IMG/VR virus record: IMGVR_UViG_3300045961_000086
Coordinates: 1-38,785 of that record
Source: a virus
Strand: one strand, 5' to 3'
DNA length: 38,785 nt
How positions within the stretch are numbered: the stretch's first letter is position 1; every line of letters starts with the position of its first letter. The notes below the pieces were generated by a model. The model ran no database searches. It saw only the letters and a program-made list of their open reading frames with translations, and was not told where the DNA came from. Positions 1 to 38,785 of this stretch are shown piece by piece. A program made the translations under genes and the position numbers.

Positions 1-3000
1 CACATTAGTCATACCCTCACCTTGTTTCTCTAACTCAATATAGTTTAAGAAATAAGCAAGTGATTTCATGCTGTATGGGTCTCCGGTTTCTAAAGCTTCT
101 TTAAGATCAGCTGTAGTAATTTCTCCGTTTGGTATATACTGATCAGATAATATTTGAGCAGCATAGTGATATAAGTCTTCACTAGCTACATTACCACTGA
201 ATCCATAAATACTTACAGGTATATCTCCTGGTTTTTCAGGCACTGTGGATATTCTAGAAATATACTGCATATCCAACTCACCTTTCTTAAGGCTATTAAG
301 AACTTGACTTACACTATAGTCAGTTACGTTTTTACCAATTTTAAAAGTATATACCTTATTTCTATCACCTTTAGCTAAGTCTTTTAATACATCTTTAAGA
401 TGCATAAGATTAGCTTCTTGTAGCAAAGTATCATAGTAATCTTTACCTTTAAACGGAGTTAGTACAGCATTTAAAGCTTTTGTTTTAGCTGAGTAATTAT
501 TATTAGGGTCAGATACAAAAGCATAAGCACTGTTGAAGTTTCTTTGTGCATTAATATATGCTGCAATCATTGGCTGATTTACAAAGTAGAATACAGTCTC
601 TTGGGGTACACCAGCCTCAATCATGTCATTAATAACATTCATGGCTTCTGGTACCATCTTAAGCACAAATGGAAACGGATTCTTAGCACGGTCTAGGATA
701 CCATTAAGGTTATGAGAATTAATATCTGTAATTCTATCACCAACAACATTCTTATCAGCACCTAATGAAATATGCTCTACTCCATTTATAGTAACTTTAT
801 TATGAGGGAATCTCATTTTAAAGTCAAACTCTATATCTGTTTCTTTAGTTCCTCCAATGATAGGATCCCATCTTAGCTTTTTATATTTAGCAGGGAAAAC
901 ATTACCAAGCATTTTATTTAATACGTGGTTCTTAGTTCTCTTAGCTTGGATACCTAAAGATCTTGCTAATGATAAGTTTGAGTCATGCTTATAAAGATTG
1001 TATCTTGCCTCAAGCATTTTGGTTGGACTGACTACATTCTTTTTACTATCAACACTTTTATTGCTTGGTAAATTATTTGGATTTCTAAATCTATTATAGC
1101 CAGCTGAGTACTTCTCTAAATCCTTTACATATCTTTCTACAAGGTATGTTTGATTAGGTTTAGTTAAGAATGCAAAGTTATCTGGCAGCATTAATACATT
1201 AATAGATGCTTTTAAGTATTCATTTTGTAAATACTTTTTCTGAATCTTTAATAACTGTTTACTTGTAGGTTGACCTTCCTTTAAAGTATTATTGTTCTCA
1301 GCTATTTTAGTCTGAGCATAAACTTCATCAAAGTTGTCAATCCCTTCTGTAATAAACTTACCTTCAGCATCAATGTTAGCTGACATAAGGAAAAGTTTAT
1401 CAGCATCAAAGTCAGCTCCTGATTTAGCCACAATTTCTGTTGGAAGAATTATTGTGTTACCAGATGCCGGGTTTAAGAAATGCCAAACCTCTAATGCTTC
1501 AATAGTATTAGTGGCATCATTAGGAATCCTTGGACCAAATAAAGATATAGAAAGTCTATTTTCTTTTAACCAGTTCTCATCTTTGATTAAAGCATTAAGT
1601 CTATCAAGAGTCTCAATTTTATTACCTTCATTGTCTTTTAGATTTAAAAGATGCTTATAGTTATCAGAGAATGAAATAGCAGCCTTTGCAAGAGATGTTG
1701 CTCTTCTTTTTCCAGTAGTGGGATCTATTTCACCTCTTCTATAGAAAGGTAATGTGTTTGTTCCAAGAAAAGCTTGGATATCTTTTGGATCTGTGAGAAG
1801 ATCAAACTGAGTATCCCAACCTCCATTTGTAAATGTAGTAGGTGCTTGTACTAGCGGCTCACCATTAGTAGTTTGTTTAATGAGTCTTTTATAGATAATA
1901 CTCATTAAGATTTTTTCTACACCGTCTGCTTCAGGATGTAAAGACAAGTCATTTAATAACTGACCATCTAAAGTAGTATTAATGATTTTAAGTAAGTGGT
2001 CTGGTACACCATTTGCTCCAAGTTCATCACGGATTACCTGTACAAACTTTTTAAGATTACCTTGGTATTTACCAACACCTTTATCATCTATTACATACTC
2101 ATAACCAATCTCATTAAGAAGTTCTTCTTTGAGTAGGTTTGAATAACCATCAACTATGTTTTCATAGTTATTTACAGTAGCTTTATTATCAGCATTAGTA
2201 ATTTCACCATCACTATATAGGTTATCTAGGTTAATTACCCTTGTCTGAGTTGCAATAGGAATTTTCTTCTTATGCTCATCATTGATGACAGTTACTTCTT
2301 TCAGACCTGCCAGATAAATTTCATTAGGTGTAATACCATCTAAGTTATCTGTTACTTCTTTAAAGTTTTTATCCTTAAAGATTTGATCCGGTTTAGCATT
2401 AACACCACCTTCAGTTACATATGTAGCTCCTTTAGATGCAGAGTTAAATGTAAGATACTGAATGTTATTCTTCATCATAAGCTCATGAAGCTTATCTAAA
2501 TTAGAATTAGTTCCAGCAAGGTTAGGAATTAAAGGAGATATTGCATACTTGTGCATTGCTGTAGTAGCAATAGGTGCATTACCAAGAGCCCCAAAATAGT
2601 GAAGTTTATATATTGGAAAGAACTGTTTTGCAACTTCTGGAGTAATCTGTTCTCCTGCTACAATTCTTTGATAAAGATTTTCTTGTGCAAGAGACCAACC
2701 TCTACCTATTTTATGAAGTGCTCTATAAGTATCAAGAGTCATTACTGCATAACCATCTGATTCCTCCATTTCATTAAATGGTTTAGCATCTGCTTCAACA
2801 AGTTTATTTGCTTCAGATTCAGACATTACTTTTTGATACTCTTCTTTCCAAGCTTCTTTAAGTTCATCTAAATAAATTGAACTTCTAACAGCATCTTGGA
2901 CAACAGCAGTTCTTATAGAACTTCTTAATTGAAGATTTGGAAGACCTTTAGATTTAGCATATGTGTTAGCATTAAACTTAGTATTAATGAACTCAAGTGA

Positions 3001-6000
3001 TGCATTATCAAATAAGAAACCATATCCTCCAGATGTTAAACCTGGGATACGTTTAGACCAGTCTTCTTTAGAGTGATCCCATTGTGAGAAGTCTCCAATA
3101 AATAGCATTGAAGTTTCAAACTTGTGGATCCAGTCATTATATAGATAAGCTTTTATTAGTTGATCAATTACATTACTTCTTTCTTCATCAACTAATGATT
3201 CTAATGGAGTAGTAATACCTGCTTTATCTAATAAACTTTGGGTAAGAACATCTCCTATAGCTTCTCTAAATTCAGCAAAATCTTGACTGGTTAAGTCATT
3301 AAAGTAATCTACAATATCTCCGTAGATATCATCCATTAACTCAGAACCTTTCAAGTAAGTTTCTAGTTCTTCTTCTAGTTGTTGTTCTGCTAAAGTGTAT
3401 AGTTTTGCTTTTGTCTCAGGTTTTAATACTGTGTCAAAGGCTGCGAATAATTCTCCAGCTACTAAACCTGGTTCAACTTCTCTATTGTATTTAGTAAGTC
3501 TTAGTAATTCATTTCTTTCAGCAGACTTAAATCTTTTAATTCTATCAAACTCAGTAGCAATATAACCAACCATGTAGTTCTTAATAGCATATTCCTCACC
3601 AGCAGGTGTGTTAAACATGTTAAGGTCCACATACAAATACTGATCTGGTCCTTTCTGAATTCTATTCTCAATAATGTTTTTAGAAATACCCCCTTCAATT
3701 CTTAAACCAAAAGAAGATTTCTTTTCAGAAGTTCTTGGGAGTTCTACAATTCCAGACTCAGTCATTGATAAGAACTCTTGTTGGTATTTACCAATTGGAT
3801 CTAAGTCAGTTGTATTTGTACCGTCAACATTCTCAATGTTTGTTCCTGATACAAATACTGGATTAAGAGATTTACCATTTAGTTTTCCCCCATTACCATT
3901 AACGAACAATGATGTAAGCAATTTAGATCTACCATTCTTAGTAAAGGTATTCTTAGCTGGACTCAAATAACTCATGTGTGGAATCTTTACAAGATCCTCA
4001 AATGATTTAGCAGAATTAATAGCATCCACTCTACCAAATAATGTAGAGTATTCCATATTTTCATATGCTCTGTTACCGTCTGCTCTAAGTACTCCTAAGT
4101 TAGCTGAGTCATAACCATACTTAGCTTGAAGATCAATAAGTCTTTTAACCTGAGTATTCTGGTTAATTTTAGCACCTTTAAATAAAGGAAGTACATTAGC
4201 TTTAATCTCTGCTCTAAGAGTAGCAATTGGATTTTCTCTAAATGTTTGTAAAGCTTCAACTTGATTTGTAGTAAGTTTTTTACCAGCTACATAGTCTCTA
4301 TCCAGATTGTTAAATGCATCAACTATTTTGTAGAAATAATCTAGACCATAATAGTCAAGTTTAGTACTTAATTCATCTTTTATAGCCTGAACATCATCAA
4401 AGTTTAAGCCAATAGCTTTAGCAAACTTGTAAACATTTTCGGGAGTATTGGTAAGGTTTTCTGCCGAACCAAAATCTTTTACAATGTTCTCAAGATCTAG
4501 TACAGATTTATTATCTGCAGTCTTTTTAAGGTATTTGGTCTTGGCAGAACTTTTAAAGTCACCTTCCCATCTTGCAGATATTGCTGAAGTATCTAAAGAA
4601 GCTTGAACAGTTTTAATATCAAAGCCTGTCACTTCTGTTCTAGTTTCCCCAAAAGGACTGACTTTAGTAGTTAGTTGTGGGAAAATTGACACCTGCCAGT
4701 ATTGTACTTTTGGTTTATTACCAAAGTCTTGCCAGAACATTCTGCTAATATCAAACTCAAATGAGTTAGTAATATTTGACGGGTCTGGGTATTTAGTTTC
4801 AAAGAGTTGTTTGATCTCTGGAAATTTAGCAGCTTCAGCTTTTAGTTTTTCATAAGCTTCTGCTCTATCAGCAATACCACCTATAGCCTTTGCTACAATG
4901 TTAAATGTTTTTCTGAAGTCAGCTCTTTCATAGAAACCAAGTCTGTTTTTAACTTTGTTCCCATCAACTACTTTAAATAAACTTTTAAGGATGTAAGTAG
5001 TTTCTTTGCTCATCATTTCCTGCAAAGATCTCTTACCTGTCTTATTAGCATCAAGTACATCTCCATCTCTGGCATCTGATTTACTTTCAATGTCTAGTTC
5101 ATCAGTTTGCTCACCATTCTCATCAACATAAGTGTCATCTATCTCATACTTCTTTCTAGCAATTTCATAATCACTATTCTCCATATGGTATTTAACTACA
5201 CCAGATTTTTCATCTCCCCAGTTATCAACTGCAGCTTGTAAAATTCTAATGTTGTCAAGAATTACTTCTTGTTCTTCGGTAACCTCAGGTTGTGGAAGTT
5301 GTTGTAATACTACTTCTGTATATTGTTTAGCTTTTCCAGCCTTATAGTTTTCAAGTTGTACATATGCATCTTCTAGTTTAGAAACAACCATAATGCTAAC
5401 AGCTTTTTTGTTAGCTTTAATTGAGTTGTGTTTGTAAAAGTCTGCAACAATTTTAATCTCATGCCATGATTCTCCCTTAACTCTATCACCACGTTTGTTA
5501 TCTGCAGTTAAGTTACCAAAGTCATCAATCTGAGATTTTAAGAATATGTACTTATCATCTCCTTTAGAACTCTTCATAATACCAACAGCATTATCCTTAA
5601 GTTCTTTTAAAGATTTAATGCTATTGAATTCTGGGAAGTTAGTGATCTTACCAAGCTTAGCTCTTTCAACCTCAAGTTTTCTTTCAAAATCTTTCTTAGC
5701 CTCATTATACATCCAAGCTCTTTTCTCTGGATCAACTAGCATTGCAATACTAGCAGACTTAGGACCAACTCCTATAGTCTTCTTAGCATTATCATATACT
5801 ATATCAATGAGCTCTGAGAAATAACTGTCAATTGATTCTGATACTAAGTCAGACTCTTGTTTACCTAAAATATCTTTACTTGGTCTTATTGTACTTGCTA
5901 TACCTCTGTCAAGTTCAGTAAATGTAATGTTATCAATTAAAGGTGTGTACTGATTAATTCTACCAAAGTAAAGGTTCTCAAACATCTCTTTAACCATTGG

Positions 6001-8913
6001 AGAAGACATAATATCTACACTGGTATCTTTGCTAGAGAATTTACCTTTAATAGAATTAAATACAGCTTTTAAAAACTCAAGTATCTTTCTAAAGATATTA
6101 GTTTTTTGTGGAGCTTCTTTAAATGGTTTTTGATTCTTAGCATAAGTTCTAAAGTCTTCGGCTAAGATTTCTTCTAACTCAAAATATGATTTATCAGCAT
6201 AAGGTGTATTACCTTTCTTGTCTGTATAGTTTCTTAATTCATCATAGAGCTTATACTTTTCATCCTTAGTTAGAAATAACTGTGAGAAAGCATGCCATGA
6301 TTCATGGTATACATCTACATAGGAGCCCTTAGCTGGATTAATTTGTATTGTGGCTAACTTAGTATTAGTAGGATCTAATAAAGTTGCTCCAGAGACTACA
6401 AACTTAGCGTAGATATCAGAGTTAACTAAGTTGGCTGCATGTTCTAAACCAACATATTTTTGTAAGATTTTTCCTGCTTGACTTTTTTCCCACCAGTTCT
6501 TTGCATTAGCCTGAACCTTTTTTGAAAGAACTTCACTTGCATAACCTTTTCTAAATAAATCACTAAGTCCAGGAATAGAATTAACATCTACATTAGAATT
6601 AATTACACTTGCAACAGTAGAGTTTGTATTTTCTGGTGCAGGTATTTCTGGATTAGCAATAGATTCTACAGTATCAATAGCTGCAACTACAGGATTTCTT
6701 TTTTCTTGAAACTGTTTGTTGCTACTTTCTCTAACATATCCTACAAGTTTATCACCTACATATACTTCAATGACATCATACTTGGTTTCAAATAATTCTC
6801 CAGTTTCTGAAGGAACTTCAAGTTTAGGCACAAGTTTAAGTGTAGCTGTAAGACCAAGTTCTCTTCCTGTAGCTAAAGCTTCTTCTGTTACTTCAGGAAA
6901 GTTCTCTGGACTAATTGTAGTTTCTTTATTGTAGAATCTAACTTTATTACCATCAGCTTCAAAGAAATCAAAACCAGTTGTAGTTGTGGTTGGCTTTGCA
7001 AGTCTACCAGTAATTACTTCCCCATTTTCTAATCTTTCTACAAGAGCATTCTTAATTACTTTTACATCAGAGTCATCTTGAATTGCTTTCTCTTGGTTAG
7101 TATTAGCATTGGTTTCATTAGCCTTTTGCAATCTATCTAGAATACCATCCTTTTCAGCAAAAGTTAATGAATAGTTATAGAAACCAGGGTCTAGGTTAGT
7201 AATGATGATTGGTGTATCAAAAGAAGTAATAAAATCTAAGTAAGGCTTGCTTTCTATTTCTTGAGTAGTTGTATTATATTTAAAGTATGTACCATTCTTT
7301 AAGTTTTCTTGGCTAAAGTGAATTACAGTAGGATTACCTTTATAGCCGGTAGCTAAAGCCTCAATAAAATTTTTTTGAATATTAGCAATTTCTGCAGGGG
7401 TTTTTTTGCTTAGAGCATTATTAGATAATGCAACATCTAAACTTGAGCCCATAAGACCAGTCTTCTCATATAATTTAAGAGTAATGGTCTCATTATCTGG
7501 ATTCATTAAAAACTTATGTCTTCTTACACTAGCCGAAATAGAATCTGGTATAAATTGATTAATATATGTCTGCTTAATACCAAACGGTATATTAGGATTT
7601 GTTATAAGTTGGGCAATCTCAGTTGCAAGTTCATTTGTAATTCCAGGTCTTTCAACTAAAAAGTTTTGACCATTGATTACAATCTTAGCTCTACCTTCTG
7701 CTTTACCGGATGTTACAATAGATAAATTGTTATATACCTCTTCTGTTATACCGGGAAAGCTGGTTATTTTATTTAAAGGGATTTTACTTGCTGTAAGATA
7801 TGATGGTATACCTGTAGTAATCCCTGTCAATGGGAGTTGGACAGGCTTAGTGTTTAATATCTCTTCTTTTAAGTTATAGAGCTGCTTAAAACTTTCTTGC
7901 TGATCCTTTGCAATTTGTTTTACAAATGCTTGATAATCTCCATCAATATCTTTATCATAAATTTTTTGAGCTATTTCTTCAGGAGTTTGAATGATGTTGC
8001 CTTTGTCATATACATCTGTAACTTCATACTTACTGCCCTTTAAACGGACATCTTTCATGAACTGATATACTAACTTACCTTTTTCTTTGTCTGTAACATT
8101 ACCCTTTTCATCAAAGTAAATAGGGTTACCTTTTTCATCACTTACTACAAGAATAACTCTATTAAATGCTTGAGTTACTCCTGGTTTAGCCAAACCTCTA
8201 GTAACCATGGTTCTAGATCTTGTTACCTCAGCTACGGTAGTTTTATCCATGTAAGGTGTATTCTCTTCATTAGCAAACTCATTTAAGTTATGACCAACAA
8301 GAGTAAGTGCTTGACCTTGGTAAACTAGTTTACTGATTTCATCTGACTGAGAGAAAGCTGCATTAATCTTAGATAAGGTATTAATAAGAACTTTCTTTTC
8401 TGGATCTAAGTCTTCAGGAAAGAGTGCTGTTTTACTTTTAGGATCTACTGTAACAAATGGAATCATTGTTCCTCCAAATACAATAGGTGATTTGAATCTT
8501 GGTGTGTGTTCCAACTCACCTTCTTCTTTCTGTTCTATCTCACCTTGTTTACCTTCTTCTTGTTTCTTAGCATCTCTAAGAGTCTGTAAATAATTAGCAT
8601 CTGCTAAATCAGTAATGATGTTAGAGAAATTATCTGGATTAGAATACTCTGCTGCTTTATTATATAGATTAGCAATGTAGCTTGAAGGATTAATTTTTCC
8701 TACAAAGTCTGTAATTAACTGAGACGCAATAATAGAAGGTACTGTCTGCAAAAAATTAGCAGCATTTTCCGGTGTTGAGTTCTTAGCAATCTTATCAAAA
8801 AGCTCTTTCATAAAAGTGTCAGGATTAAAATCCTGACCTTTTGTTGATAGTTCTTTGTAGACTCTTTTATATACTATATTGATTTGGTCTTTTGTTAAAG
8901 CACAAGTTATCAT
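1..8913 (-). CDS. Virion RNA polymerase, crAss-like (YonO-type), with zincin-like domain; 3' end outside window
   Basis: One uninterrupted frame of 2971 codons running off the left edge, so the C-terminus is missing. The start is the ATG at 8913-8911, which overlaps the preceding TAA by one base (TAATG). Residues 2462-2505 resemble the beta-prime catalytic core: R2462-I-P, then about 36 residues on SGADFDADKLF with D2501, D2503 and D2505 as the expected metal-binding aspartates. Further upstream, an SASKG stretch (K2161) and KKKIPIATQ (2215-2223) are candidate beta-like double-psi barrel lysines (inference). In phage phi14:2 a family member is packaged in the virion and transcribes early genes after ejection; the same role is inferred here. 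Residues 870-874 read HESWH, with E915 or E919 as a possible third zinc ligand, so a zincin-type metalloprotease domain lies N-terminal to the polymerase. I noticed only one cysteine (C4). The polymerase assignment is firm; the protease activity is a motif-level prediction. Confidence 0.9.
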   Translation of the reverse strand, partial: MITCALTKDQINIVYKRVYKELSTKGQDFNPDTFMKELFDKIAKNSTPENAANFLQTVPSIIASQLITDFVGKINPSSYIANLYNKAAEYSNPDNFSNIITDLADANYLQTLRDAKKQEEGKQGEIEQKEEGELEHTPRFKSPIVFGGTMIPFVTVDPKSKTALFPEDLDPEKKVLINTLSKINAAFSQSDEISKLVYQGQALTLVGHNLNEFANEENTPYMDKTTVAEVTRSRTMVTRGLAKPGVTQAFNRVILVVSDEKGNPIYFDEKGNVTDKEKGKLVYQFMKDVRLKGSKYEVTDVYDKGNIIQTPEEIAQKIYDKDIDGDYQAFVKQIAKDQQESFKQLYNLKEEILNTKPVQLPLTGITTGIPSYLTASKIPLNKITSFPGITEEVYNNLSIVTSGKAEGRAKIVINGQNFLVERPGITNELATEIAQLITNPNIPFGIKQTYINQFIPDSISASVRRHKFLMNPDNETITLKLYEKTGLMGSSLDVALSNNALSKKTPAEIANIQKNFIEALATGYKGNPTVIHFSQENLKNGTYFKYNTTTQEIESKPYLDFITSFDTPIIITNLDPGFYNYSLTFAEKDGILDRLQKANETNANTNQEKAIQDDSDVKVIKNALVERLENGEVITGRLAKPTTTTTGFDFFEADGNKVRFYNKETTISPENFPEVTEEALATGRELGLTATLKLVPKLEVPSETGELFETKYDVIEVYVGDKLVGYVRESSNKQFQEKRNPVVAAIDTVESIANPEIPAPENTNSTVASVINSNVDVNSIPGLSDLFRKGYASEVLSKKVQANAKNWWEKSQAGKILQKYVGLEHAANLVNSDIYAKFVVSGATLLDPTNTKLATIQINPAKGSYVDVYHESWHAFSQLFLTKDEKYKLYDELRNYTDKKGNTPYADKSYFELEEILAEDFRTYAKNQKPFKEAPQKTNIFRKILEFLKAVFNSIKGKFSSKDTSVDIMSSPMVKEMFENLYFGRINQYTPLIDNITFTELDRGIASTIRPSKDILGKQESDLVSESIDSYFSELIDIVYDNAKKTIGVGPKSASIAMLVDPEKRAWMYNEAKKDFERKLEVERAKLGKITNFPEFNSIKSLKELKDNAVGIMKSSKGDDKYIFLKSQIDDFGNLTADNKRGDRVKGESWHEIKIVADFYKHNSIKANKKAVSIMVVSKLEDAYVQLENYKAGKAKQYTEVVLQQLPQPEVTEEQEVILDNIRILQAAVDNWGDEKSGVVKYHMENSDYEIARKKYEIDDTYVDENGEQTDELDIESKSDARDGDVLDANKTGKRSLQEMMSKETTYILKSLFKVVDGNKVKNRLGFYERADFRKTFNIVAKAIGGIADRAEAYEKLKAEAAKFPEIKQLFETKYPDPSNITNSFEFDISRMFWQDFGNKPKVQYWQVSIFPQLTTKVSPFGETRTEVTGFDIKTVQASLDTSAISARWEGDFKSSAKTKYLKKTADNKSVLDLENIVKDFGSAENLTNTPENVYKFAKAIGLNFDDVQAIKDELSTKLDYYGLDYFYKIVDAFNNLDRDYVAGKKLTTNQVEALQTFRENPIATLRAEIKANVLPLFKGAKINQNTQVKRLIDLQAKYGYDSANLGVLRADGNRAYENMEYSTLFGRVDAINSAKSFEDLVKIPHMSYLSPAKNTFTKNGRSKLLTSLFVNGNGGKLNGKSLNPVFVSGTNIENVDGTNTTDLDPIGKYQQEFLSMTESGIVELPRTSEKKSSFGLRIEGGISKNIIENRIQKGPDQYLYVDLNMFNTPAGEEYAIKNYMVGYIATEFDRIKRFKSAERNELLRLTKYNREVEPGLVAGELFAAFDTVLKPETKAKLYTLAEQQLEEELETYLKGSELMDDIYGDIVDYFNDLTSQDFAEFREAIGDVLTQSLLDKAGITTPLESLVDEERSNVIDQLIKAYLYNDWIHKFETSMLFIGDFSQWDHSKEDWSKRIPGLTSGGYGFLFDNASLEFINTKFNANTYAKSKGLPNLQLRSSIRTAVVQDAVRSSIYLDELKEAWKEEYQKVMSESEANKLVEADAKPFNEMEESDGYAVMTLDTYRALHKIGRGWSLAQENLYQRIVAGEQITPEVAKQFFPIYKLHYFGALGNAPIATTAMHKYAISPLIPNLAGTNSNLDKLHELMMKNNIQYLTFNSASKGATYVTEGGVNAKPDQIFKDKNFKEVTDNLDGITPNEIYLAGLKEVTVINDEHKKKIPIATQTRVINLDNLYSDGEITNADNKATVNNYENIVDGYSNLLKEELLNEIGYEYVIDDKGVGKYQGNLKKFVQVIRDELGANGVPDHLLKIINTTLDGQLLNDLSLHPEADGVEKILMSIIYKRLIKQTTNGEPLVQAPTTFTNGGWDTQFDLLTDPKDIQAFLGTNTLPFYRRGEIDPTTGKRRATSLAKAAISFSDNYKHLLNLKDNEGNKIETLDRLNALIKDENWLKENRLSISLFGPRIPNDATNTIEALEVWHFLNPASGNTIILPTEIVAKSGADFDADKLFLMSANIDAEGKFITEGIDNFDEVYAQTKIAENNNTLKEGQPTSKQLLKIQKKYLQNEYLKASINVLMLPDNFAFLTKPNQTYLVERYVKDLEKYSAGYNRFRNPNNLPSNKSVDSKKNVVSPTKMLEARYNLYKHDSNLSLARSLGIQAKRTKNHVLNKMLGNVFPAKYKKLRWDPIIGGTKETDIEFDFKMRFPHNKVTINGVEHISLGADKNVVGDRITDINSHNLNGILDRAKNPFPFVLKMVPEAMNVINDMIEAGVPQETVFYFVNQPMIAAYINAQRNFNSAYAFVSDPNNNYSAKTKALNAVLTPFKGKDYYDTLLQEANLMHLKDVLKDLAKGDRNKVYTFKIGKNVTDYSVSQVLNSLKKGELDMQYISRISTVPEKPGDIPVSIYGFSGNVASEDLYHYAAQILSDQYIPNGEITTADLKEALETGDPYSMKSLAYFLNYIELEKQGEGMTNV

Positions 8914-15785: not shown

Positions 15786-15796
15786 TATAGATTTTA

Positions 15797-18817: not shown

Positions 18818-18837
18818 ATTAGTTTCTTCTTAATTTA

Positions 18838-21007: not shown

Positions 21008-21016
21008 CTTATAAAA

Positions 21017-24460: not shown

Positions 24461-24478
24461 ATGTGAGGTCTATAACTA

Positions 24479-24484
24479 AATATA
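24479..24484 (-). promoter_or_regulatory. TATATT leader element, 1147-aa gene
   Basis: The minus strand carries AATTTAGTATATTTAGT, with TATATT ending 18 bases before the ATG at 24460, in a 58-base gap after the lysozyme-fusion gene's neighbour boundary. Confidence 0.3.
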
Positions 24485-24518
24485 CTAAATTATAATTACT
24501 TGTTTAAACTTTAATTGT

Positions 24519-31390: not shown

Positions 31391-31392
31391 GA

Positions 31393-32448
31393 TTAAAATA
31401 TTCTAGTTGCGTTATATCTTCTATAGTATGAATTGTCAGGAGAATAAGACTTAAACATGTCATAGTATCTACCATACATTGCTTTTCTATTAGCCAACCA
31501 TACTTGTTCAAGTTCTTTAAAGTTTGGTGTATTAACTAGACTAAGAGCATTAGTTCTTGCAATTTTTAATCTTTGTTCAACCAACTGCATTCTTTGTGCA
31601 ACATCTTCACCATTCATATAAAGATTCTCCATGATTCTTTGTTTTAATGCATACTCATAGTATTCATTAATTAAATCATGATCAGGTACTAAAAGTCCTC
31701 CATCCTCATCTTCCATTTGACCTTGGTAGTTAAGATATACAGTACCTGTTTCAAAAGTTGTAAAAAGGTAACCTCCTTTAATCCAACCTTGGTTTGCTAC
31801 ATTATAGTAAAGATTAGGGCAATCACATTCTATTTCTTGGCTGGCTTTCATTCTTAGTGGAATGAGGTTTTTCCAAACTCTTACATTAGATTGACTGATT
31901 ACTTGGATAAGTTCATACTTCTCTCCTTTGCAATTCATAAAGACTCTAGGTCTTGTACAAACATCTCCATAAGGAGCAAGAGGATCATAACTTGTAGGAA
32001 TGACACTTGGAGTACATGTGGTAGGACAAGTATTGCTTGGACATGCTGCAGTATGGTTACAGGGATTTGCGTTGCATACAGAGCAGTTTACAGTAGCTGG
32101 GGCACATAAGTCTACAGTAGATGGAGTTTCTACATAAGGTACTTCCTGAATATTTGTACCACCCATGTTACCACCATATCCTACTTGTTGTACAAACTCT
32201 CCACAAATAGCAGCAAAGTTAAATGTATAGAAATCATCTGGTAATTTTACTTTACCATGACACACATCTAATAAAACTTCTTTAGTTTGATTAACTCTTA
32301 GACCTAGTTCGTAGGTTACTCTTTTAGCAACTTTAATTAATTGCTGGGGCTCTATCATATTTTCAAGAGCAAAACTATTTAGGTCTACTGTTACATCTTC
32401 TAACAGTTGATCAAAAGTTCTATATTTAAGTGTGTAATTAAAGTCCAT
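31393..32448 (-). CDS. Ring / tail tubular protein (gp4-like adaptor), 351 aa, with Cys-rich insertion
   Basis: This is the conserved head-tail ring component found directly before the muzzle gene in crAss-like phages. The N-terminal helices (residues 11-60, with TYELGLRVNQTKEVLLDV and then VKLPDDF) and the C-terminal helices (260-330, YYEYALKQRIMENLYMNG) are typical of tail-tubular/gp4-type adaptors. A central insertion at about 110-165 contains seven cysteines from C115 to C145 plus C164, with Thr/Pro/Asn between them, and does not look like the surrounding fold. It could be a metal- or disulphide-stabilised loop on the outside of the tail. Its ATG overlaps the previous stop by one base, so translation is probably coupled. 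The specific ring number is not assigned. Confidence 0.75.
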   Translation of the reverse strand: MDFNYTLKYRTFDQLLEDVTVDLNSFALENMIEPQQLIKVAKRVTYELGLRVNQTKEVLLDVCHGKVKLPDDFYTFNFAAICGEFVQQVGYGGNMGGTNIQEVPYVETPSTVDLCAPATVNCSVCNANPCNHTAACPSNTCPTTCTPSVIPTSYDPLAPYGDVCTRPRVFMNCKGEKYELIQVISQSNVRVWKNLIPLRMKASQEIECDCPNLYYNVANQGWIKGGYLFTTFETGTVYLNYQGQMEDEDGGLLVPDHDLINEYYEYALKQRIMENLYMNGEDVAQRMQLVEQRLKIARTNALSLVNTPNFKELEQVWLANRKAMYGRYYDMFKSYSPDNSYYRRYNATRIF

Positions 32449-33110
32449 TACCTAAGTACATTTTGACCATCATCCAAGTTATCTTGTGGAATCTGCATCA
32501 TAGTTGTTAATTCTTTAATTGCAAATTGTTCTGCCTCAGCAAACAAATATTCTGGAGCTGCCATTTCTTGATCTTGTTTTACCAAACATTGATCAGTGTC
32601 ACATGTTTCTACAGTACCTTCAAATATGGCTTCCATTCTTATTGCTTCCCAATCAATATTAGGAAAGTATAAATAACCATTTAAGTACCAGAAGTATCTA
32701 TTCTTGTTGTATTTAAATGTTGTAGTTTTAGTCATAGAAACCCAGGTACCCGGTTCAGTTCTATATAACTCAATAGTACCATCAATTGAAGATACTGTGC
32801 GTATAATAGGTCCAAACATTCCATTAAGGATACTAGGCATTTTTTCTTTTGATCTTTTAAAATAACATCCGGAGTAAACACCTACACAGCCAGCCTCTAC
32901 TTTATCTACATCAATTAGTTCTATATAAGGCATAACCTGGAATATAGAACTCATTCTCATTAACCTGAATTGATTGTCTTCTCTTTTAATAAGAGCCTTA
33001 ATATATTTAAGAATAGAGTAATAGATTGTTCTGTCTGTTAAAAAAGGATCTTCTTTAACAGACTTTAAAACATTTCTAACTCTTGAGACAGCTTCTCCTA
33101 TTGTTGTCAT
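32448..33110 (-). CDS. Ring / tail tubular protein, 220 aa
   Basis: A conserved crAss-like head-tail ring protein. The N-terminal helical half (GEAVSRVRNVLKSVKED, TDRTIYYSILKYIKALIKR) is followed by a beta-rich middle (about 55-165) and a C-terminal helix (AEAEQFAIKELTTMM), an arrangement shared with gp4/tail-tubular adaptors. It sits between the IHF-like gene and the second ring gene. It overlaps the former by four bases (ATGA) and the latter by one base (TAATG), which points to coupled translation of a stoichiometric complex. No catalytic motif is present, and no membrane segment or signal peptide is visible. The family assignment comes from gene order and secondary-structure pattern; fold prediction would confirm it. 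Confidence 0.7.
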   Translation of the reverse strand: MTTIGEAVSRVRNVLKSVKEDPFLTDRTIYYSILKYIKALIKREDNQFRLMRMSSIFQVMPYIELIDVDKVEAGCVGVYSGCYFKRSKEKMPSILNGMFGPIIRTVSSIDGTIELYRTEPGTWVSMTKTTTFKYNKNRYFWYLNGYLYFPNIDWEAIRMEAIFEGTVETCDTDQCLVKQDQEMAAPEYLFAEAEQFAIKELTTMMQIPQDNLDDGQNVLR

Positions 33111-33688
33111 AGATCAAAATCTTTATATGTTTCTAATCCTTTTTCCTGTAATCTTCTACCTATAAATTTCTTATAAGCTTTTTCATATGCCTCTCGAACC
33201 TTTTTCTTAGATTCTACAGCCATATACATGTTCCAGTTTTCAGGATAAGTTTTAGCAACGGTTCTTTTAAATTCTCTACATGCAATGAAAGACCAAAATT
33301 CTCTATTCTTCATTTTGTGTCTTAATGCATAACTTGTAAAAAATATCTTTGCAAGTTTACCATCAGTATCCCAGTTTTTGTTTGTTACAGTAACTCCATA
33401 TTTATAAGATTTACCATAGTCAACATTTTGTTTTGTACTCTGCTCACATGTACCAATAAAAAGCCAACCTATATTTTCAGGGAATAGAACACCGTCTCTT
33501 TTTTCTATTGCAGTCTGAAACATTAGTTTATTATAACTTTTTACAATTTGTCTTATCTCACTTTCACTTAAATGTGAATACCTGGGATGCTTTATTTTAA
33601 ACTCATCAAAGAACTTTTTAGTAAATATGTTGTGGGCTTTTGGTCTAAACCTTGGAGCTTTAACATCTGGTTTTTTAAATTCCTTCAT
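33107..33688 (-). CDS. IHF/HU-like structural protein of the tail ring region, 193 aa
   Basis: The core at about 38-90 (SESEIRQIVKSYNKLMFQ, then VLFPENIGWLFIGT) has the helix-then-beta pattern of the protein annotated as an IHF-like subunit in crAss-like phages. In those genomes it lies just before the tail ring genes, as here. The C-terminal half is basic and helical (KSKKKVREAYEKAYKKFIG). The protein could bind DNA or, more likely given its place in the tail operon, be a ring component with an IHF-derived fold. The gene is first after the terminator at 33743-33772, with a 118-base upstream region that may hold its promoter. It ends in TGA overlapping the next ATG. Confidence 0.65.
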   Translation of the reverse strand: MKEFKKPDVKAPRFRPKAHNIFTKKFFDEFKIKHPRYSHLSESEIRQIVKSYNKLMFQTAIEKRDGVLFPENIGWLFIGTCEQSTKQNVDYGKSYKYGVTVTNKNWDTDGKLAKIFFTSYALRHKMKNREFWSFIACREFKRTVAKTYPENWNMYMAVESKKKVREAYEKAYKKFIGRRLQEKGLETYKDFDL

Positions 33689-33700
33689 ACTATATAGATT

Positions 33701-33706
33701 AATATA
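33701..33706 (-). promoter_or_regulatory. TATATT leader element, IHF-like gene
   Basis: The minus strand carries TTTTTAGTATATTAATC, with TATATT ending 12 bases before the ATG at 33688. The same element occurs in three other leaders in the window. Confidence 0.3.
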
Positions 33707-33726
33707 CTAAAAATAACTCACTTTAG

Positions 33727-33734
33727 CAAATATA
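33727..33734 (-). promoter_or_regulatory. Possible Bacteroidota-type -7 element upstream of tail operon
   Basis: The minus strand reads TATATTTG, matching the Bacteroidota -7 consensus TAnnTTTG, between the terminator and the IHF-like gene. No TTTG -33 element at the proper 19-21 base spacing is visible, so this is weak. A phage-specific promoter is equally possible. Confidence 0.3.
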
Positions 33735-33742
33735 CTGATAAA

Positions 33743-33772
33743 ACAAAACCCCCGCGAGTGCAGGGGTTTTGT
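33743..33772 (-). terminator. Intrinsic terminator closing the fibre block
   Basis: A perfect 10-bp stem (ACAAAACCCC with GGGGTTTTGT) and 10-base loop are followed on the minus strand by a T-rich run. It is placed 35 bases downstream of the 78-aa gene and separates the surface-protein block from the tail-ring operon. Confidence 0.85.
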
Positions 33773-33806
33773 CTTGTTGTCACAGAAACCAACAAACTGT
33801 AACTTC

Positions 33807-34043
33807 TTATAGTTGACAAAAGTATGCTGCTAAAGCTTGTAGAGCATCATTGACATTAGTATTAGTTGGAACAATTACGTCAGTACCACACATAATGTCT
33901 GGTCCAGTATATATTGTACACTGTGAATCAGTAACCGTATAACATGGTTCTGGATCAGGGCATCCTGCCGGAGTAGGACATGGTGCTGGACTAGTTAAAA
34001 AACTATCTTCACATCCACAATTAGAACATTTAGTTGTTGCCAT
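33807..34043 (-). CDS. Small cysteine-rich protein sharing the fibre N-terminal module, 78 aa
   Basis: Twelve residues after the start already contain four cysteine-rich positions (KCSNCGCED), followed by a Pro/Cys-rich linker (21-35). Residues 42-76 (CTIYTGPDIMC onwards, ending in a helix with LAAYFC) align with residues 18-52 of the adjacent 552-aa fibre-like protein (CVIWQGPDIPC onwards). It therefore looks like the attachment or trimerisation module made as a stand-alone protein. It begins 11 bases after the fibre gene ends and is the last gene before a strong terminator. The likely roles are a fibre cap, an adaptor, or a competitor for the same docking site; none is proven. Real coding status is supported by the paralogous module and tight spacing. 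Confidence 0.7.
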   Translation of the reverse strand: MATTKCSNCGCEDSFLTSPAPCPTPAGCPDPEPCYTVTDSQCTIYTGPDIMCGTDVIVPTNTNVNDALQALAAYFCQL

Positions 34044-34054
34044 ATTTTATAATA

Positions 34055-35713
34055 TTAAGGACAAGTTGTTGAAAATCCAGTTTCAGTATTACAAGGATCT
34101 AAGTATGCAATCATACCATCTAGACTAAGTTCAAATCCACCAATTTGATCTGGTTGAGCTGCGTCACAATCAAAGTCCCATGTTTGATTAAATGTATCTG
34201 ATAACAATGGAAAGTTTGCATTTGATGGTGCATTATGAATATCTGATCCAGTTCCAATATAGTTTGGTAGATATTCTCCAGATCTAATATTAGATGTTAT
34301 AAATCTAAAAGGACTATTACCTATTACAGATGATCCAATTGATGTTTCCTCAATATCAAGTATTGTTTGAATTTGAAGTTGTTTTGTAGATGTAATAAAA
34401 ATGTTTACTATACTAGTTAGTGCAGTTCCTGTAGCTCCTGCAATATTGATTTGTCTTGCAATCGGTTGCCAACCAGATCTATAAAGTCCATCAAAATTAT
34501 TAGAAGTAATTGAACTTGGTACTACAGCTGCACCATTATTGAATGTAATAGCACCACTAGAGTTTATAGAACATCCGCCAACTCCACTCCATGTTGTACA
34601 TCCTTGTATTGAGTTATAGGCATTTAGTGCAGTTAAAGGAACAACAGATCCCGGAGAAGCTGGATCTTCAAGTGGAATATACACATTACCTCTAAAGTGT
34701 ACTTGATTACCTATTCTTCTACACTGTGGTTTTGCCACACCTGAGTAATATGCAAATCCTTCTAAGTCAACCCAACCAGTATCTGTTATTTTTGCAGAAA
34801 TTACATTTGCTGAACTTGTTAAATCTATAGTAGATGTATTTGCTACACTTACAGAAAAAGATTGTAAGTAGTCATATATGTCACATATTACTAACCATAA
34901 ATTATTAATTGCATCTGCACTTGATTCTAAATCTGCAGTATCAACCCAAGATCCAGAATATGCTGTTGCAAAAGGAACCCCACTAGTAAGTGTATCATCT
35001 GAATCTGCAATACATTGAGATTGTACAGCAGTTACAATATCTGATGGCAACCCTGTAGCTGAAATTAATGCACAATATCCATTTGTATTATCATTAATTA
35101 AAGCATTTAGTATAACATCAATTTGGTATGAATTTCCGGCAAGCACAGATGAACTTAAGCTACAATCAACAATAATACTTGGAATTGTAAAAGTAGGGGC
35201 TGGTGCAGATTCTAATGCTGTAACTCTAGTATCTAAGTTTGTTATGCTTACATTGATCCCAGCAATTTGAGATACTAATGAACACACTTTAGTTCCAATT
35301 GCTTGAGCATACTCTGATACTGTCATTACAGTAACAGTTCCTACAACAAAACAAGGAGCTACAGTAATTAATGTTTCTGCTCCTGTTGTTTTAGTTGTTG
35401 TAATAGGACTTGTAGCTGGATCGGCCAAAGTATTTACTTCAGTTTGTAATGCACAAATCTGTTCAATTAAAAATTGGATAAGTGCTTGAAAATCATTTGG
35501 ACCACAAGCAGTTAAGTTGAAACATGAAAGATCATAGTTAGTTACATTTAATGTATCTAACACTGTACATAATTCTGTTGCAAGTTTAAATACAACATCT
35601 GATATTGTATCACCTGCACATAGTTTGATACAAGGAATATCTGGTCCTTGCCAAATCACGCAGTTACTGGAGACTGGACTACAAGGTGAGTTATCATAAT
35701 TAAGTGGCTTCAT
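34055..35713 (-). CDS. Fibre-like surface protein, 552 aa
   Basis: The N-terminal module at 18-52 (CVIWQGPDIPC, then CAGDTISDVVFKLATELC) is shared with the next gene and is probably the virion docking part. Helical Cys-containing segments follow (60-95). A heptad-like stretch at about 146-170 (SQIAGINVSITNLDTRVTAL) suggests trimerisation. Residues about 313-552 are beta-rich with Gly/Asn/Ser/Thr and include GNQVHFRGNVYIPL, a pattern common in phage fibre or collar domains. The composition and its place between head proteins and the tail operon suit a head or collar fibre. Receptor binding is not demonstrable from sequence. An AT-rich 33-base leader with a TATATT element precedes it. Confidence 0.65.
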   Translation of the reverse strand: MKPLNYDNSPCSPVSSNCVIWQGPDIPCIKLCAGDTISDVVFKLATELCTVLDTLNVTNYDLSCFNLTACGPNDFQALIQFLIEQICALQTEVNTLADPATSPITTTKTTGAETLITVAPCFVVGTVTVMTVSEYAQAIGTKVCSLVSQIAGINVSITNLDTRVTALESAPAPTFTIPSIIVDCSLSSSVLAGNSYQIDVILNALINDNTNGYCALISATGLPSDIVTAVQSQCIADSDDTLTSGVPFATAYSGSWVDTADLESSADAINNLWLVICDIYDYLQSFSVSVANTSTIDLTSSANVISAKITDTGWVDLEGFAYYSGVAKPQCRRIGNQVHFRGNVYIPLEDPASPGSVVPLTALNAYNSIQGCTTWSGVGGCSINSSGAITFNNGAAVVPSSITSNNFDGLYRSGWQPIARQINIAGATGTALTSIVNIFITSTKQLQIQTILDIEETSIGSSVIGNSPFRFITSNIRSGEYLPNYIGTGSDIHNAPSNANFPLLSDTFNQTWDFDCDAAQPDQIGGFELSLDGMIAYLDPCNTETGFSTTCP

Positions 35714-35730
35714 ATTTCTTCTATTATTAT

Positions 35731-35736
35731 AATATA
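35731..35736 (-). promoter_or_regulatory. TATATT leader element, fibre-like gene
   Basis: The minus strand carries AATTTTTGTATATTATAAT, with TATATT ending 17 bases before the ATG at 35713. No Shine-Dalgarno is evident. Confidence 0.3.
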
Positions 35737-35746
35737 CAAAAATTTA

Positions 35747-37639
35747 TTAAGACTGGCAAGTACCTGAAGAGCATCCACATCCTGAACCTCCACCACAGTT
35801 ACATCCTGTATTACATCCACAACTTGGTGTTGCACATGTATAATCAGGATTGACCAATGCTTTTAAATCTATCAATTGCTTTTTAATGATGTACTGTTGA
35901 TCTTCTTCAGGACAACAATTTGATATACCATATCTAAGTTCTAGTACTTGTTTGTATAATGCTTCTGCAGCTTTACAAGAAATTTCTTCATATTTCCAAG
36001 TAGAACAGTATGGAGTATTATATCCTGGTTTTAATGATCTTCTTGGATATACTGGAGGAGGACAAGTATGAATATTATCTACTAATGTGCAATCACCAAA
36101 GTATTCAACATAATCTGTAGGATAAGATGTAAGCCAGTGAGCCATACATATTCTTTCAGATCTTTGACCGGCAAGCAATGTGATTGTTTGTACAGTACCT
36201 TCACAATCTAAGTAATCATAATTGTGAGTTACAGTATCATGATTTTTAACTCTTGAACATACACATGAAAAACTTGTAAGACATTCATTACATGTTTCAA
36301 ATTCATTTGAAATATCTCCAAGAACTCCAGCTCCTACACTTGTTTGTGAAATTGCAACAGTCCAACAAGTAGTTGGGCACCATTCAAGAATGATTATACT
36401 ACCTACATAATCAGAAAGATCAGTTGATGTAATTATATCAGCCTCAGTATCTGTACAATCAGTAAGAACATAATAAGTTGTTTTACATGCTTCACAATCT
36501 AAAAATGAATTCTGTACAGTAATTGGAACATCAGATGGAATTGGATTTGGATATTCTTCTACAATCCAACATCCAGGACAATCTGTTTCAACATTAATTA
36601 CTTGACCTACAAATTCACTAAGATCTGATGAGGTATAAATTATTGTACCTAAGTCATCACAGTTAGTGAGTAAATAATTTGGTGCAGGATTACAGTCATT
36701 GCATGAATCATAAGCTTGTAATACAACAACATCAATAGCACAATCACAATTTATAACACTATCAACTACCCAGCAGTTATCATAACCTTGAATTTGAACT
36801 ACTTGACCAAGAGTTGCAAAAGGAGCTAATGATTGAGCAGTAGTATAAATTGGTTCTTTACTATCAGCACAATCTAGTAATTGAAAGCATTGACTAGGAC
36901 ATAATCCATCTGTACACTCTCCATTTGCAGTTATAATAAGTTCGGGACCTGGTCCAGGATTAGTTTGTGGATAAGCCTGAGTACAGGCTTTCCAGTAACC
37001 ATTGACCATAGTATTTATTGTATTCCCGTCACAATCTATATATGAAAGCTTTGTAGTACCAATGATCTCATAGCACTTACATCCACAACCTTCACATGCA
37101 CCATCTTCAAGTACTGTAACCGCATTTGAACAATTTTGTGAAGGGGCTACAAAGAAACAAGTATATCCAAAATCTGCATCTACTTGAATAGATGCATAAC
37201 CACCAACATAAGCTGATAAATCTGTATCAGTTGTAACTATAGGATATTGACCTTCACATGAATACAAATCATAACATGTAGGTGTACAAGATGGACAAGT
37301 AAAACCTTCATCTTCACCGCCACATGGTGTTTCATAATTTGTTGTACTATCCCAAGTATAGTTACTTGGGGTATTAGTAGGAACCATTTGAAGATACCCA
37401 TATAAAGGTCCTGTAATTGGTTGACCTGGGCCAGCAGTTCCTCTTGTTATTTTATAACACTGTTGTGTTAAAGGAATATATGTACCGGATATAGGATCAT
37501 AACCTATTGCACCACTACCCTCATATATATTAATTCCAAGATCTGGAGCTACAACAATATTTCCATCAAAAGAAAAATATACTGTTGCACCACCACAACA
37601 AGGTTCAAATGCATAATAGGCAATAGAGAATGTAGTCAT
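35747..37639 (-). CDS. Cysteine-rich tandem-repeat surface protein, 630 aa
   Basis: About 53 of 630 residues are cysteine. Four repeats of roughly 65 residues (122-185, 251-316, 322-385, 389-453) share a Y-x-L-x-x-C start, a TDLSxYVG-like centre, a C-W/F-x-V step and a closing CxxC. A second, shorter unit (187-219 and 459-498) has a Y-x-DC[DE]G core. The tail at 545-600 is helical with CC at 575-576, followed by a metallothionein-like terminus (602-628: CGC, CNC, CGC pairs). No enzyme motif or signal peptide is seen. It is likely a head-exterior or fibre-associated virion protein whose small domains are held by disulphides or metal. It starts 2 bases after the zinc-ribbon gene ends. Confidence 0.65.
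   Translation of the reverse strand: MTTFSIAYYAFEPCCGGATVYFSFDGNIVVAPDLGINIYEGSGAIGYDPISGTYIPLTQQCYKITRGTAGPGQPITGPLYGYLQMVPTNTPSNYTWDSTTNYETPCGGEDEGFTCPSCTPTCYDLYSCEGQYPIVTTDTDLSAYVGGYASIQVDADFGYTCFFVAPSQNCSNAVTVLEDGACEGCGCKCYEIIGTTKLSYIDCDGNTINTMVNGYWKACTQAYPQTNPGPGPELIITANGECTDGLCPSQCFQLLDCADSKEPIYTTAQSLAPFATLGQVVQIQGYDNCWVVDSVINCDCAIDVVVLQAYDSCNDCNPAPNYLLTNCDDLGTIIYTSSDLSEFVGQVINVETDCPGCWIVEEYPNPIPSDVPITVQNSFLDCEACKTTYYVLTDCTDTEADIITSTDLSDYVGSIIILEWCPTTCWTVAISQTSVGAGVLGDISNEFETCNECLTSFSCVCSRVKNHDTVTHNYDYLDCEGTVQTITLLAGQRSERICMAHWLTSYPTDYVEYFGDCTLVDNIHTCPPPVYPRRSLKPGYNTPYCSTWKYEEISCKAAEALYKQVLELRYGISNCCPEEDQQYIIKKQLIDLKALVNPDYTCATPSCGCNTGCNCGGGSGCGCSSGTCQS
36281..37276 (-). repeat. Four ~65-residue Cys-rich protein repeats
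   Basis: Encoded repeats at residues 122-185, 251-316, 322-385 and 389-453 of the 630-aa protein share the order Y-L-C, TDLSxYVG, CW-V, CxxC. Copies 3 and 4 are the most alike. DNA identity looks low, so the duplications are old. Confidence 0.7.
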
Positions 37640-37641
37640 TG

Positions 37642-37830
37642 TTAAGTTGTTTTGTATCTATCTTTTCCCCAAACTTGATTAGTTTGGGATACTTTTACCA
37701 TTGTTTTTCTTTGCTTTAGTCCAGATTCATAAGATGTTAAACATCCTGAACATACTGTTTTACCATCTGATGCTGTTCTTTTCTGACATCCACATGATAG
37801 TTTCTTTTTGCAGTTTGGGCAATTAGCCAT
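37642..37830 (-). CDS. Small zinc-ribbon protein, 62 aa
   Basis: The first thirty residues contain CPNC (C4, C7), CGC (C13, C15) and CSGC (C27, C30), a spacing typical of a treble-clef or zinc-ribbon knuckle. The remainder is basic and short. It sits between two structural genes with a 21-base gap upstream and a 2-base gap downstream, which supports it over the alternative overlapping frame at 37737-37928. Small zinc-ribbon genes of this type occur in the structural block of Bacteroidota phages. Its role may be assembly or a minor virion component, but this is uncertain. Confidence 0.65.
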   Translation of the reverse strand: MANCPNCKKKLSCGCQKRTASDGKTVCSGCLTSYESGLKQRKTMVKVSQTNQVWGKDRYKTT

Positions 37831-37851
37831 AAGTTGTTGGTTTTAAATAAG

Positions 37852-38394
37852 TTAACAATTAATACAATCCATTTTATTAAGGAGCTTCCAAGCATAATTA
37901 TAAAGTGACATTCCTTTTTGAGGTTCATGACAAAACTCTACTTTAGACTTAGCAGCTTCTAAATACATTTTAATGAGATTAAGTTCTTCTAATTTTTGCT
38001 TAATCTTAAATGGCGGATCACAATCTGCCATATCTAATCTACAAAGAATATTGTAGTATCTATTTAATGCTTTAGTAATTCTCATATGATTGTATTCTAC
38101 ATATACTACATCATTAGGAGAAACACTGTATTTTATAATATAAATACCATCTGGAATATCTACATATTCAGTCCCACAGTTTGTTGTTTGCAGATTAAGA
38201 TCACATGCTGTAATGTTTTCAATAAAACCTGAATTAACATCTAGTTGTACAGAATACTGAAATCCTGGAACAGTTATATTTAACTGCTCACATACTACAG
38301 GAATTAGATCTGTATAGACACTTGTATCCATTACAGTAAGAATACAAGGATTCATTACAGTTGGAACTTCTAAACTTAATACGTGATTTGCCAT
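37852..38394 (-). CDS. Conserved structural-block protein, 180 aa, function unknown
   Basis: Residues 1-105 look like a beta-sandwich domain (MANHVLSLEVPTVMN, then GFQYSVQLDVNSGF and YIIKYSVSPNDVVYVEY). Residues 105-180 are helical with cysteines, including NILCRLDMADCDPPF, and the protein ends CINC. The helical half resembles in style the helical Cys-containing part of the 630-aa protein (545-600), so the two may contact each other or be related. It is the first gene after the terminator at 38405-38445. A head decoration or connector role fits the location, but no family was recognised with confidence. Confidence 0.6.
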   Translation of the reverse strand: MANHVLSLEVPTVMNPCILTVMDTSVYTDLIPVVCEQLNITVPGFQYSVQLDVNSGFIENITACDLNLQTTNCGTEYVDIPDGIYIIKYSVSPNDVVYVEYNHMRITKALNRYYNILCRLDMADCDPPFKIKQKLEELNLIKMYLEAAKSKVEFCHEPQKGMSLYNYAWKLLNKMDCINC

Positions 38395-38404
38395 AGTTAT
38401 TTAA

Positions 38405-38445
38405 TAAAAAAAGGGGATAGGAGTTTGTAACTCTTCTCCCCTTTT
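38405..38445 (-). terminator. Intrinsic terminator after the partial head gene
   Basis: On the minus strand AAAAGGGGA pairs with TCCCCTTTT, with a second inner pairing of GAGTT with AACTC, and the hairpin runs into a T tract. It lies between the stop at 38466 and the ATG at 38394 in a 71-base gap, so it probably ends or attenuates the capsid transcript. Confidence 0.8.
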
Positions 38446-38465
38446 AGATTTTGAGTTTAGTTATC

Positions 38466-38785
38466 TTAGTTACAAGAAACTACATTGTAAGGATTGTACG
38501 GAGGAAGTGCAGGGAAGTTAATTGCAACTCCACATGTAGTATTACAAGAGAATGCAGGATCTTCAATAACACAATCTGAACAACCATCTAACCAGTTTGT
38601 CACATCTGTTACAAATGAAGACATAGCAGCTGTAGAGAAAATAGTCAATGCATATTGATCATTATCAAATACACCAGATGGGTTATTAAAACGTGGTACA
38701 TTATGAATAAGTACATATCTGTAGTAAAGAGCACTACGGTCAATAGCACCAACCATTTGGTTACCTTGAGTAATCTCACGGATAC
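38466..38785 (-). CDS. C-terminal part of a structural protein (5' end outside window)
   Basis: The frame is open to the right edge: upstream of the internal Met at 38756 it continues as IREITQGNQ, so this is the end of a longer gene rather than a 96-aa protein. The visible part is beta-rich with ALYYRYVLIHNVPRF and a Cys-containing end (CSDC, CNTTC). A strong terminator follows directly, as is common after highly expressed capsid genes. Gene order would allow the major capsid protein or another head protein, but the fragment does not decide it. Confidence 0.6.
   Translation of the reverse strand, partial: IREITQGNQMVGAIDRSALYYRYVLIHNVPRFNNPSGVFDNDQYALTIFSTAAMSSFVTDVTNWLDGCSDCVIEDPAFSCNTTCGVAINFPALPPYNPYNVVSCN

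Follow-up and report, generated by a model that had tools for sequence, protein, structure and literature searches.

Terminal cysteines at the chain junctions of the virion RNA polymerase of crass-like phages suggest a disulphide-coupled ejection cargo

The RNA polymerase (RNAP) complex packed in the virions of crass-like phages has cysteines at the ends where one protein chain is followed by the next. In 30 genomes, a cysteine is found at 46 of 46 linked N-termini and at 47 of 47 linked C-termini (93/93), and at none of the outer ends, which are the N-termini of the first protein, A (0/30), and the C-termini of the last one, C (0/29; 0/59 together), a terminal cysteine being one within the first 8 or the last 12 residues. 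These genomes come from four named families and further groups and are not independent of each other, 10 of the 30 being from the family of the DNA described here. Protein A is a 2290-aa protein (gp47 in crAss001, gp67 in phi14:2), B is the polymerase (gp50, gp66) and C is the next RNAP-associated protein (gp49, gp65), all assigned by gene order and homology. From the placement of these residues we infer a disulphide bond at each junction, so that, judging from the protein sequences, the complex is quite probably an ordered chain A-B-C, which would be ejected in that order and come apart when it is reduced in the cytoplasm.

The window, which is the whole stretch of DNA that was analysed, is a linear IMG/VR record of 38,785 bp, and its minus strand carries all the main genes:

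1..8913, minus strand: protein B, the catalytic virion RNA polymerase, a 2971-aa fragment with GADFDADK at residues 2499-2506 and 1 cysteine (C4)
8902..8904, minus strand: N-terminal junction cysteine C4 of B (MITCALTKDQ); a cysteine lies at 3-5 in family members with an intact B N-terminus
8913..15785, minus strand: protein A, an RNAP-associated giant of 2290 aa with 1 cysteine; weak PD-(D/E)XK match, homologues found
8919..8921, minus strand: C-terminal junction cysteine C2289 of A (...NLTCE), the sole cysteine in 8/8 homologues and always in the last 4 residues
15797..18817, minus strand: cargo protein of 1006 aa with 0 cysteines, as in 16/16 homologues
18881..21007, minus strand: cargo protein of 708 aa with 4 cysteines in two CxC pairs; homologues have 0, 2, 4 or 8, never an odd number
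19676..19747, minus strand: CxC...CxC segment C421-C444 of the 708-aa protein (C421, C423, C442, C444)
21017..24460, minus strand: cargo protein of 1147 aa with 0 cysteines, from the cysteine count and homologue comparison
24519..25988, minus strand: lysozyme-domain protein of 489 aa with 0 cysteines, which opens the cysteine-poor block (Phage_lysozyme below the cut-off, E 0.0024; phrog_13211, E 8e-8)
25988..31390, minus strand: muzzle protein of 1800 aa with 21 cysteines (1.17%); crAss_MUZ PF25731, E 5e-33
31393..32448, minus strand: tail ring protein 1, 351 aa, 13 cysteines, with a cysteine-rich loop at 115-145; CrAss_Ring_1 (PF24228), E 5e-9
32448..33110, minus strand: tail ring protein 2, 220 aa, 4 cysteines; CrAss_Ring_2 (PF25702), E 2e-22
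33107..33688, minus strand: 193-aa protein with 2 cysteines, in the place of the crAss001 IHF-like gene
33807..38756, minus strand: cysteine-rich exterior or fibre block (proteins of 78, 552, 630, 62, 180 and 96 aa; 3.6-11.5% cysteine), with cysteine numbers mostly kept in relatives

The polymerase gene runs off the contig end, so the C-terminus of B and the next gene lie outside the window. The 2971-aa fragment matches the catalytic RNA polymerase gp66 of phi14:2 (E 4e-9) and has DFDAD from residue 2501, and the aspartates of this DxDxD motif are invariant in an alignment of 8 sequences from several families. DFDAD is shared by the window and its relative L082, and several other relatives have DFDGD at the active site, with the aspartates conserved. 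The muzzle, the adjoining tail rings and the DxDxD virion RNAP, which are the structural module of a Crassvirales-type virion, are all present, and the window belongs to an uncultured crass-like group. Capsid, portal and terminase are absent from the 38.8-kb fragment and are found in the relative G005 (Crass_capsid, E 2e-32; portal, E 9e-90; TerL, E 6e-62). Twenty-three muzzle relatives were fetched; the closest annotated genomes are Leptolyngbya phage Lbo-JY46, Cellulophaga phi4:1 and csAssE-Sib, none of which is classed in Crassvirales in its record. A family search with the 193-aa protein gave no match.

The original prediction placed a switch in cysteine content at the one-base overlap of the muzzle and lysozyme genes, which is a real overlap, and read it as the border between outer proteins and ejected cargo. 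Left of position 25988 there are 6 cysteines in 8611 residues (0.07%), the number it had estimated: 0 in the 489-, 1147- and 1006-aa proteins, 4 in the 708-aa protein, arranged in the two CxC pairs it had described, and 1 in the 2290-aa protein. The full count for the 2971-aa polymerase frame is likewise 1. Its C4 in the polymerase is correct and its C2288 in the 2290-aa protein is replaced by C2289. To the right, cysteines number 142 in 4162 residues (3.4%), with 21 in the 1800 residues of the muzzle, 13 in the 351-aa, 4 in the 220-aa, 2 in the 193-aa, 9 in the 78-aa, 20 in the 552-aa, 53 in the 630-aa (exactly the figure it had proposed), 6 in the 62-aa, 9 in the 180-aa and 5 in the 96-aa protein. 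The two sides differ with a Fisher p of about 2e-61, and the chance of at most 6 cysteines in 8,611 residues at a background of 1.1% is 8e-33.

Cysteine clusters had been ascribed to the fibre, 78-aa, zinc-ribbon, ring and muzzle proteins. A clear enrichment is found only in ring protein 1 and the fibre-side proteins (3.6-11.5%), and the muzzle, at 1.17%, lies within the 0.8-1.4% of the family's non-structural genes. Depletion in the cargo and enrichment on the fibre side are separate causes of the step. The use of disulphides by outer proteins, also proposed, agrees with the tail hubs and rings of crAss001 as described in PMC10172136, where rings 1 and 2 are disulphide-bonded to the tail hubs; the cysteine-rich insert of ring protein 1 (residues 115-145) may be such a docking site. 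The 630-aa protein (window 35747-37639; 8.4% cysteine) ends in a C-terminal run of CxC motifs (GCNTGCNCGGGSGCGCSSGTC), and its relatives keep 30-65 cysteines.

Depletion of the cargo is found in related phages across Crassvirales. Among proteins of at least 100 aa, the cargo has 7 cysteines in 7478 residues in crAss001 (1.59% in non-structural genes), 6 in 6990 in phi14:2 (1.11%), 4 in 6996 in phi4:1 (1.48%) and 9 in 6675 in cr108_1 (1.82%), and in seven window relatives the values are 0.03-0.19% against 0.7-1.15%. In most genomes crassvirus cargo lies about 10-30-fold below the non-virion genes, and counts per protein are constant in relatives, as in the 1006-aa (none) and 2290-aa (exactly one) homologues listed above. 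The depletion follows the fate of the protein and not its position on the map, as gp49 and gp50 of crAss001 lie on the opposite strand and are depleted.

Tryptophan and histidine are also mildly depleted (log2 -0.2 to -1.4), which, with the low cysteine content of scaffold and capsid proteins, would suit a by-product of composition or fold in long helical, Ala/Gln/Asn-rich proteins, the terminal cysteines then being due to chance. This explanation is extremely improbable: cysteine is the outlier, being the most depleted amino acid in 11 of 11 genomes (log2 -2.4 to -5.0), and the terminal placement, 93/93 against 0/59, refutes it for the terminal pattern.

The ejection proteins of other phages show the same poverty, with 1 cysteine in 2,261 residues in T7 gp14/gp15/gp16, 0 in 1,309 in P22 gp7/gp20/gp16 and 0 in 4,294 in N4 gp50/gp51/gp52, while early and middle genes of N4 are at 1.5%, with 13 in 673 in its two-subunit cytoplasmic RNAP. 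The proposal that ejected proteins avoid cysteine therefore holds in Crassvirales as in T7, P22 and N4, and the near-absence of cysteine from these ejection proteins suggests a general constraint on threaded proteins. As a predictor of cargo, however, cysteine poverty alone was rejected, because capsid, scaffold-like and portal proteins of the window's family are equally poor (major capsid protein, 538 aa, 0 cysteines in G005; portal, 917 aa, 1-2 cysteines, 2 in G005); the crAss001 capsid and portal have 0.4% and 0.6%. Poverty thus marks the capsid and its contents and not ejection alone, and it is strongest in the cargo. The step is real, weaker than claimed as a cargo predictor, and its first explanation is already known for N4.

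In the window's family, cargo proteins other than A-B-C, which are probably channel-forming, never have an odd number of cysteines (0 of 66), and those present mostly lie near each other, which is consistent with small local loops. This pattern fails in some other families, as crAss002 and cr127_1 have cargo with a single cysteine. In Lbo-JY46 and Fpv-type phages (L078:33834-35858, L102:5968-7770, L103:5974-7770), a cargo protein encoded upstream of A has one cysteine, at position 5 (MKKKC), without an obvious partner, and the Intestiviridae post-muzzle cargo (L076:10852-13125, L110:2548-4221, L111:1337-2236) has a conserved C-terminal RCGG motif, whose lone cysteine lies 8-11 residues before the C-terminus. 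T7 gp6.7 (L119:865-1131) and gp14 (L119:9729-10319), annotated as ejected or internal virion proteins, have a lone cysteine each, at position 2, which is possibly a related coupling or lipid site.

The residual cysteines, which the original prediction passed over, are the most informative part of the cargo. In protein A, one lies among the final few residues; B carries them at position 3-5 and at the C-terminal end, and C carries one at position 3-6; in non-structural proteins a terminal cysteine is found at 10 of 202 N-termini and 30 of 202 C-termini. The chain interiors have 106 cysteines in 189,893 residues, a third of which come from a single genome whose sequence was joined over an intron. 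Gut phages have some unpaired internal cysteines in B and C (for example 7 in p-crAssphage B+C), which counts against the coupled chain. The A|B junction of the window has C2289 and C4 on its two sides, and the B|C junction, past the contig end, was found in the relative G001. In G004 the N-terminal cysteine of B sits behind a frameshift. For crAss002, G010 and L095 a start codon further downstream was taken, protein C of csAssE was read through a frameshift, and cr108_1 and cr131_1 were joined over presumed introns. In csAssE-Sib (L079, L081), the annotation assigns the N-terminus of C to a protein of its own (WOZ57322, 281 aa), which overlaps C in another frame, probably because of a frameshift.

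Overlaps of 1-16 bases are common between the A and B genes and between the B and C genes, and the terminal cysteines could for this reason be a nucleotide signal at gene borders, serving translational coupling, recoding or overlapping reading. There is next to no likelihood in this reading, as the rule holds in crAss001 and DAC17, where A lies kilobases away from B and C and on the other strand, and around inserted genes (L156), uses both TGT and TGC codons, and leaves nothing at junctions upstream of A; a translational coupling or codon signal is refuted by these observations. The opposite-strand A genes and the use of both codons show that the rule acts at the protein level.

The rule is also kept when chains are fused or split. 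In Suoliviridae, Fpv-type phages and cr108_1, A+B is a single protein with a C-terminal cysteine and C has an N-terminal one, while in Intestiviridae, Crevaviridae and Lbo-JY46 (its fused order based on gene position) B+C is a single protein with an N-terminal cysteine and A has a C-terminal one, so natural fusions keep only the pair of the remaining junction. Matches of B fall in the second half of A+B and in the first half of B+C, and matches of C at the end of B+C. L125 (4732 aa, L125:6206-20404) and L145 (4895 aa, L145:6305-20992) have A+B+C as single chains with 0 cysteines, whose C-termini align to separate C proteins (E 1e-18 to 3e-152); these cysteine-free giants are an independent parallel to the single-chain virion RNA polymerase (vRNAP) of N4. 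In four window relatives, a protein D (244-307 aa), homologous to the last ~115 aa of B (E 1e-5 to 1e-18), is the separate C-terminal domain of B and has exactly two cysteines, at residue 3 and at the last residue, which are invariant at 28-51% identity; the chain order is sometimes A-B-D-C. The split point moves, as a zincin-like motif found in A in crAss001 and cr127_1 belongs to B in the window family; wherever the cut lies, its ends carry the cysteines. L150 has a new split within the polymerase and a new cysteine pair, and L169 and L178 have four-link chains. An intrachain N-to-C disulphide in B was considered and is unlikely, since A, C and the fused chains have one terminal cysteine each and the rule still holds.

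An alignment of the core shared by eight families was too diverse for a pattern search, and a Suoliviridae alignment was used instead to scan diverse contigs outside the set from which the rule was formed, giving 67 loci, of which L130 gave no usable junction. When neighbouring large cargo genes were scored automatically, cysteines were present on each side of 51 of 63 presumed junctions, and on neither side of 76 of the 77 cargo junctions further upstream. Most of the 12 misses are not inter-chain junctions on inspection; they are due to genes downstream of C, B/C frameshifts or introns (with uninterrupted relatives), an inserted gene and a likely wrong start. One real failure is L168, where the D link has both cysteines and its A+B partner has its sole cysteine at -62. 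Similar-looking proteins of 609 and 740 aa (MKKQNIEVEG and MKNINVEAEG; L168:18285-20114 and L156:13708-15930) stand between chain links and have no terminal cysteine. The weak matches L186 and L189 (E 5e-4 and 1e-3), which may not be homologous, have 11-12 internal cysteines and no terminal one. Among all ORFs of 120-1500 aa, a search for exactly two cysteines, one per end, gave 11 proteins, all middle links by position, where 1.15 of the 229 two-cysteine proteins would be expected to have that placement by chance.

In the proposed mechanism, each C-terminus would be coupled to the N-terminus of the next chain by one disulphide between terminal cysteines, formed either during export or in the virion once it is mature. 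The chain would leave N-terminus first, with that of A leading, as one string threaded through the portal and tail, and the reducing cytoplasm would free the subunits, which would refold into the transcribing enzyme. Cysteines elsewhere in the cargo would be purged, which would avoid knots, blocked unfolding and cross-linking of packed proteins. We regard it as rather likely that gene products are joined in this way into a covalent train, with single disulphides in place of peptide bonds, which is threaded through the tail and uncoupled in the cytoplasm, and that phages swap freely between fusion and cysteine coupling. A string with the N-terminus of A in front would fit the ejection model of crAss001, in which gp45 is inferred to be ejected N-to-C and constrictions below 50 angstroms require partial unfolding (PMC10172136).

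The same model of crAss001 has room for, e.g., six copies of each RNAP protein, and such packing of several cargo copies together, with the short conserved contexts at some cysteines (MxxCP in C proteins, LLxxLxC in A proteins), would suit terminal cysteines that are independent tags of each chain, such as docking or packaging motifs, like-with-like disulphides, or metal or lipid ligands. Such tags are an unlikely explanation, as they leave the 0/59 outer ends unexplained and do not account for new splits that gain cysteines on both ends or full fusions that lose them all; pairing of unlike rather than like chains is argued from this presence and absence alone. Structure models by AlphaFold were poor for both D (pTM 0.30, N-terminal pLDDT 33) and C (mean pLDDT 56.6).

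The time of coupling bears on a further alternative, in which the bond is transient, made in the periplasm by DsbA-type oxidation of the emerging chain or during enzyme assembly, with free thiols in the virion. The cytosol in which virions are assembled is reducing, some hosts are anaerobic, and an argument from periplasmic oxidation is in print for N4-like phages; on the other side, tail proteins of crassviruses are oxidised in purified virions (PMC10172136). We hold this alternative to be improbable, and it is otherwise compatible with the disulphide-coupled chain, as it alters when the bond is formed and not whether. The hosts are often anaerobes, in which extracellular oxidation may be slow, and this counts against the coupled chain. 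A motif scan of the window's relatives found no thioredoxin-like CxxC proteins; annotated thioredoxins are present in gut crassviruses.

Avoidance of cysteine by ejected proteins is not new, as N4-like vRNAPs have none and the same explanation, passage through the tail or periplasm, was published for them (PMC2784036, PMC3715699, PMC3915230). The crassvirus polymerase resembles N4 gp50 (Schitoviridae) as a giant, capsid-packed and ejected RNA polymerase that avoids cysteine. While N4 gp50 is one 3,500-aa chain of T7-like fold, without junctions or terminal cysteines, the crassvirus RNAP has a DxDxD two-barrel active site and usually 2-4 chains, with cysteines at each junction. In the window, A and B are separate, with one cysteine each and a different active site from the single-chain, cysteine-free N4 type, so its RNAP is similar to N4-like vRNAPs in cysteine avoidance and is not a member of them. 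The ejected proteins of T7 and P22 are nearly cysteine-free like crassvirus cargo and have no junction cysteines, the one in T7 gp14 being at position 2.

The homologous cargo block of crAss001 is gp45-gp50, for which PMC10172136 proposes partial unfolding on ejection, and gp47, gp49 and gp50 were found in virions by mass spectrometry. That paper reports disulphides only in the tail barrel and hubs, and a term search of it found neither the word cysteine nor a covalent chain. No report of junction cysteines was found in the literature searched, a scope outside which the phi14:2 RNAP structure paper (Drobysheva 2021) lies, and as far as that literature shows, the junction-cysteine rule is new.

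If the proteins are coupled, crAss001 virions are predicted to hold a reducible species of ~694 kDa (gp47 + gp50 + gp49; 262 + 277 + 155), with the computed linked peptides CNS-S-S-CITTNSTIEELAAK (M 1812.823) for A-B and ICGANTLYEL-S-S-CAIIPQVR (M 1992.017) for B-C. The finding addresses a question in protein-injecting phages, which is how giant proteins leave in order and in equal numbers through a channel that is too narrow for them. If true, the code of junction cysteines would predict which proteins travel together, their order, their direction and the exact peptides, and multi-protein delivery with redox release could naturally be designed on the same principle. For the viruses that are most abundant in the human gut, it would give a concrete and testable answer to this question.
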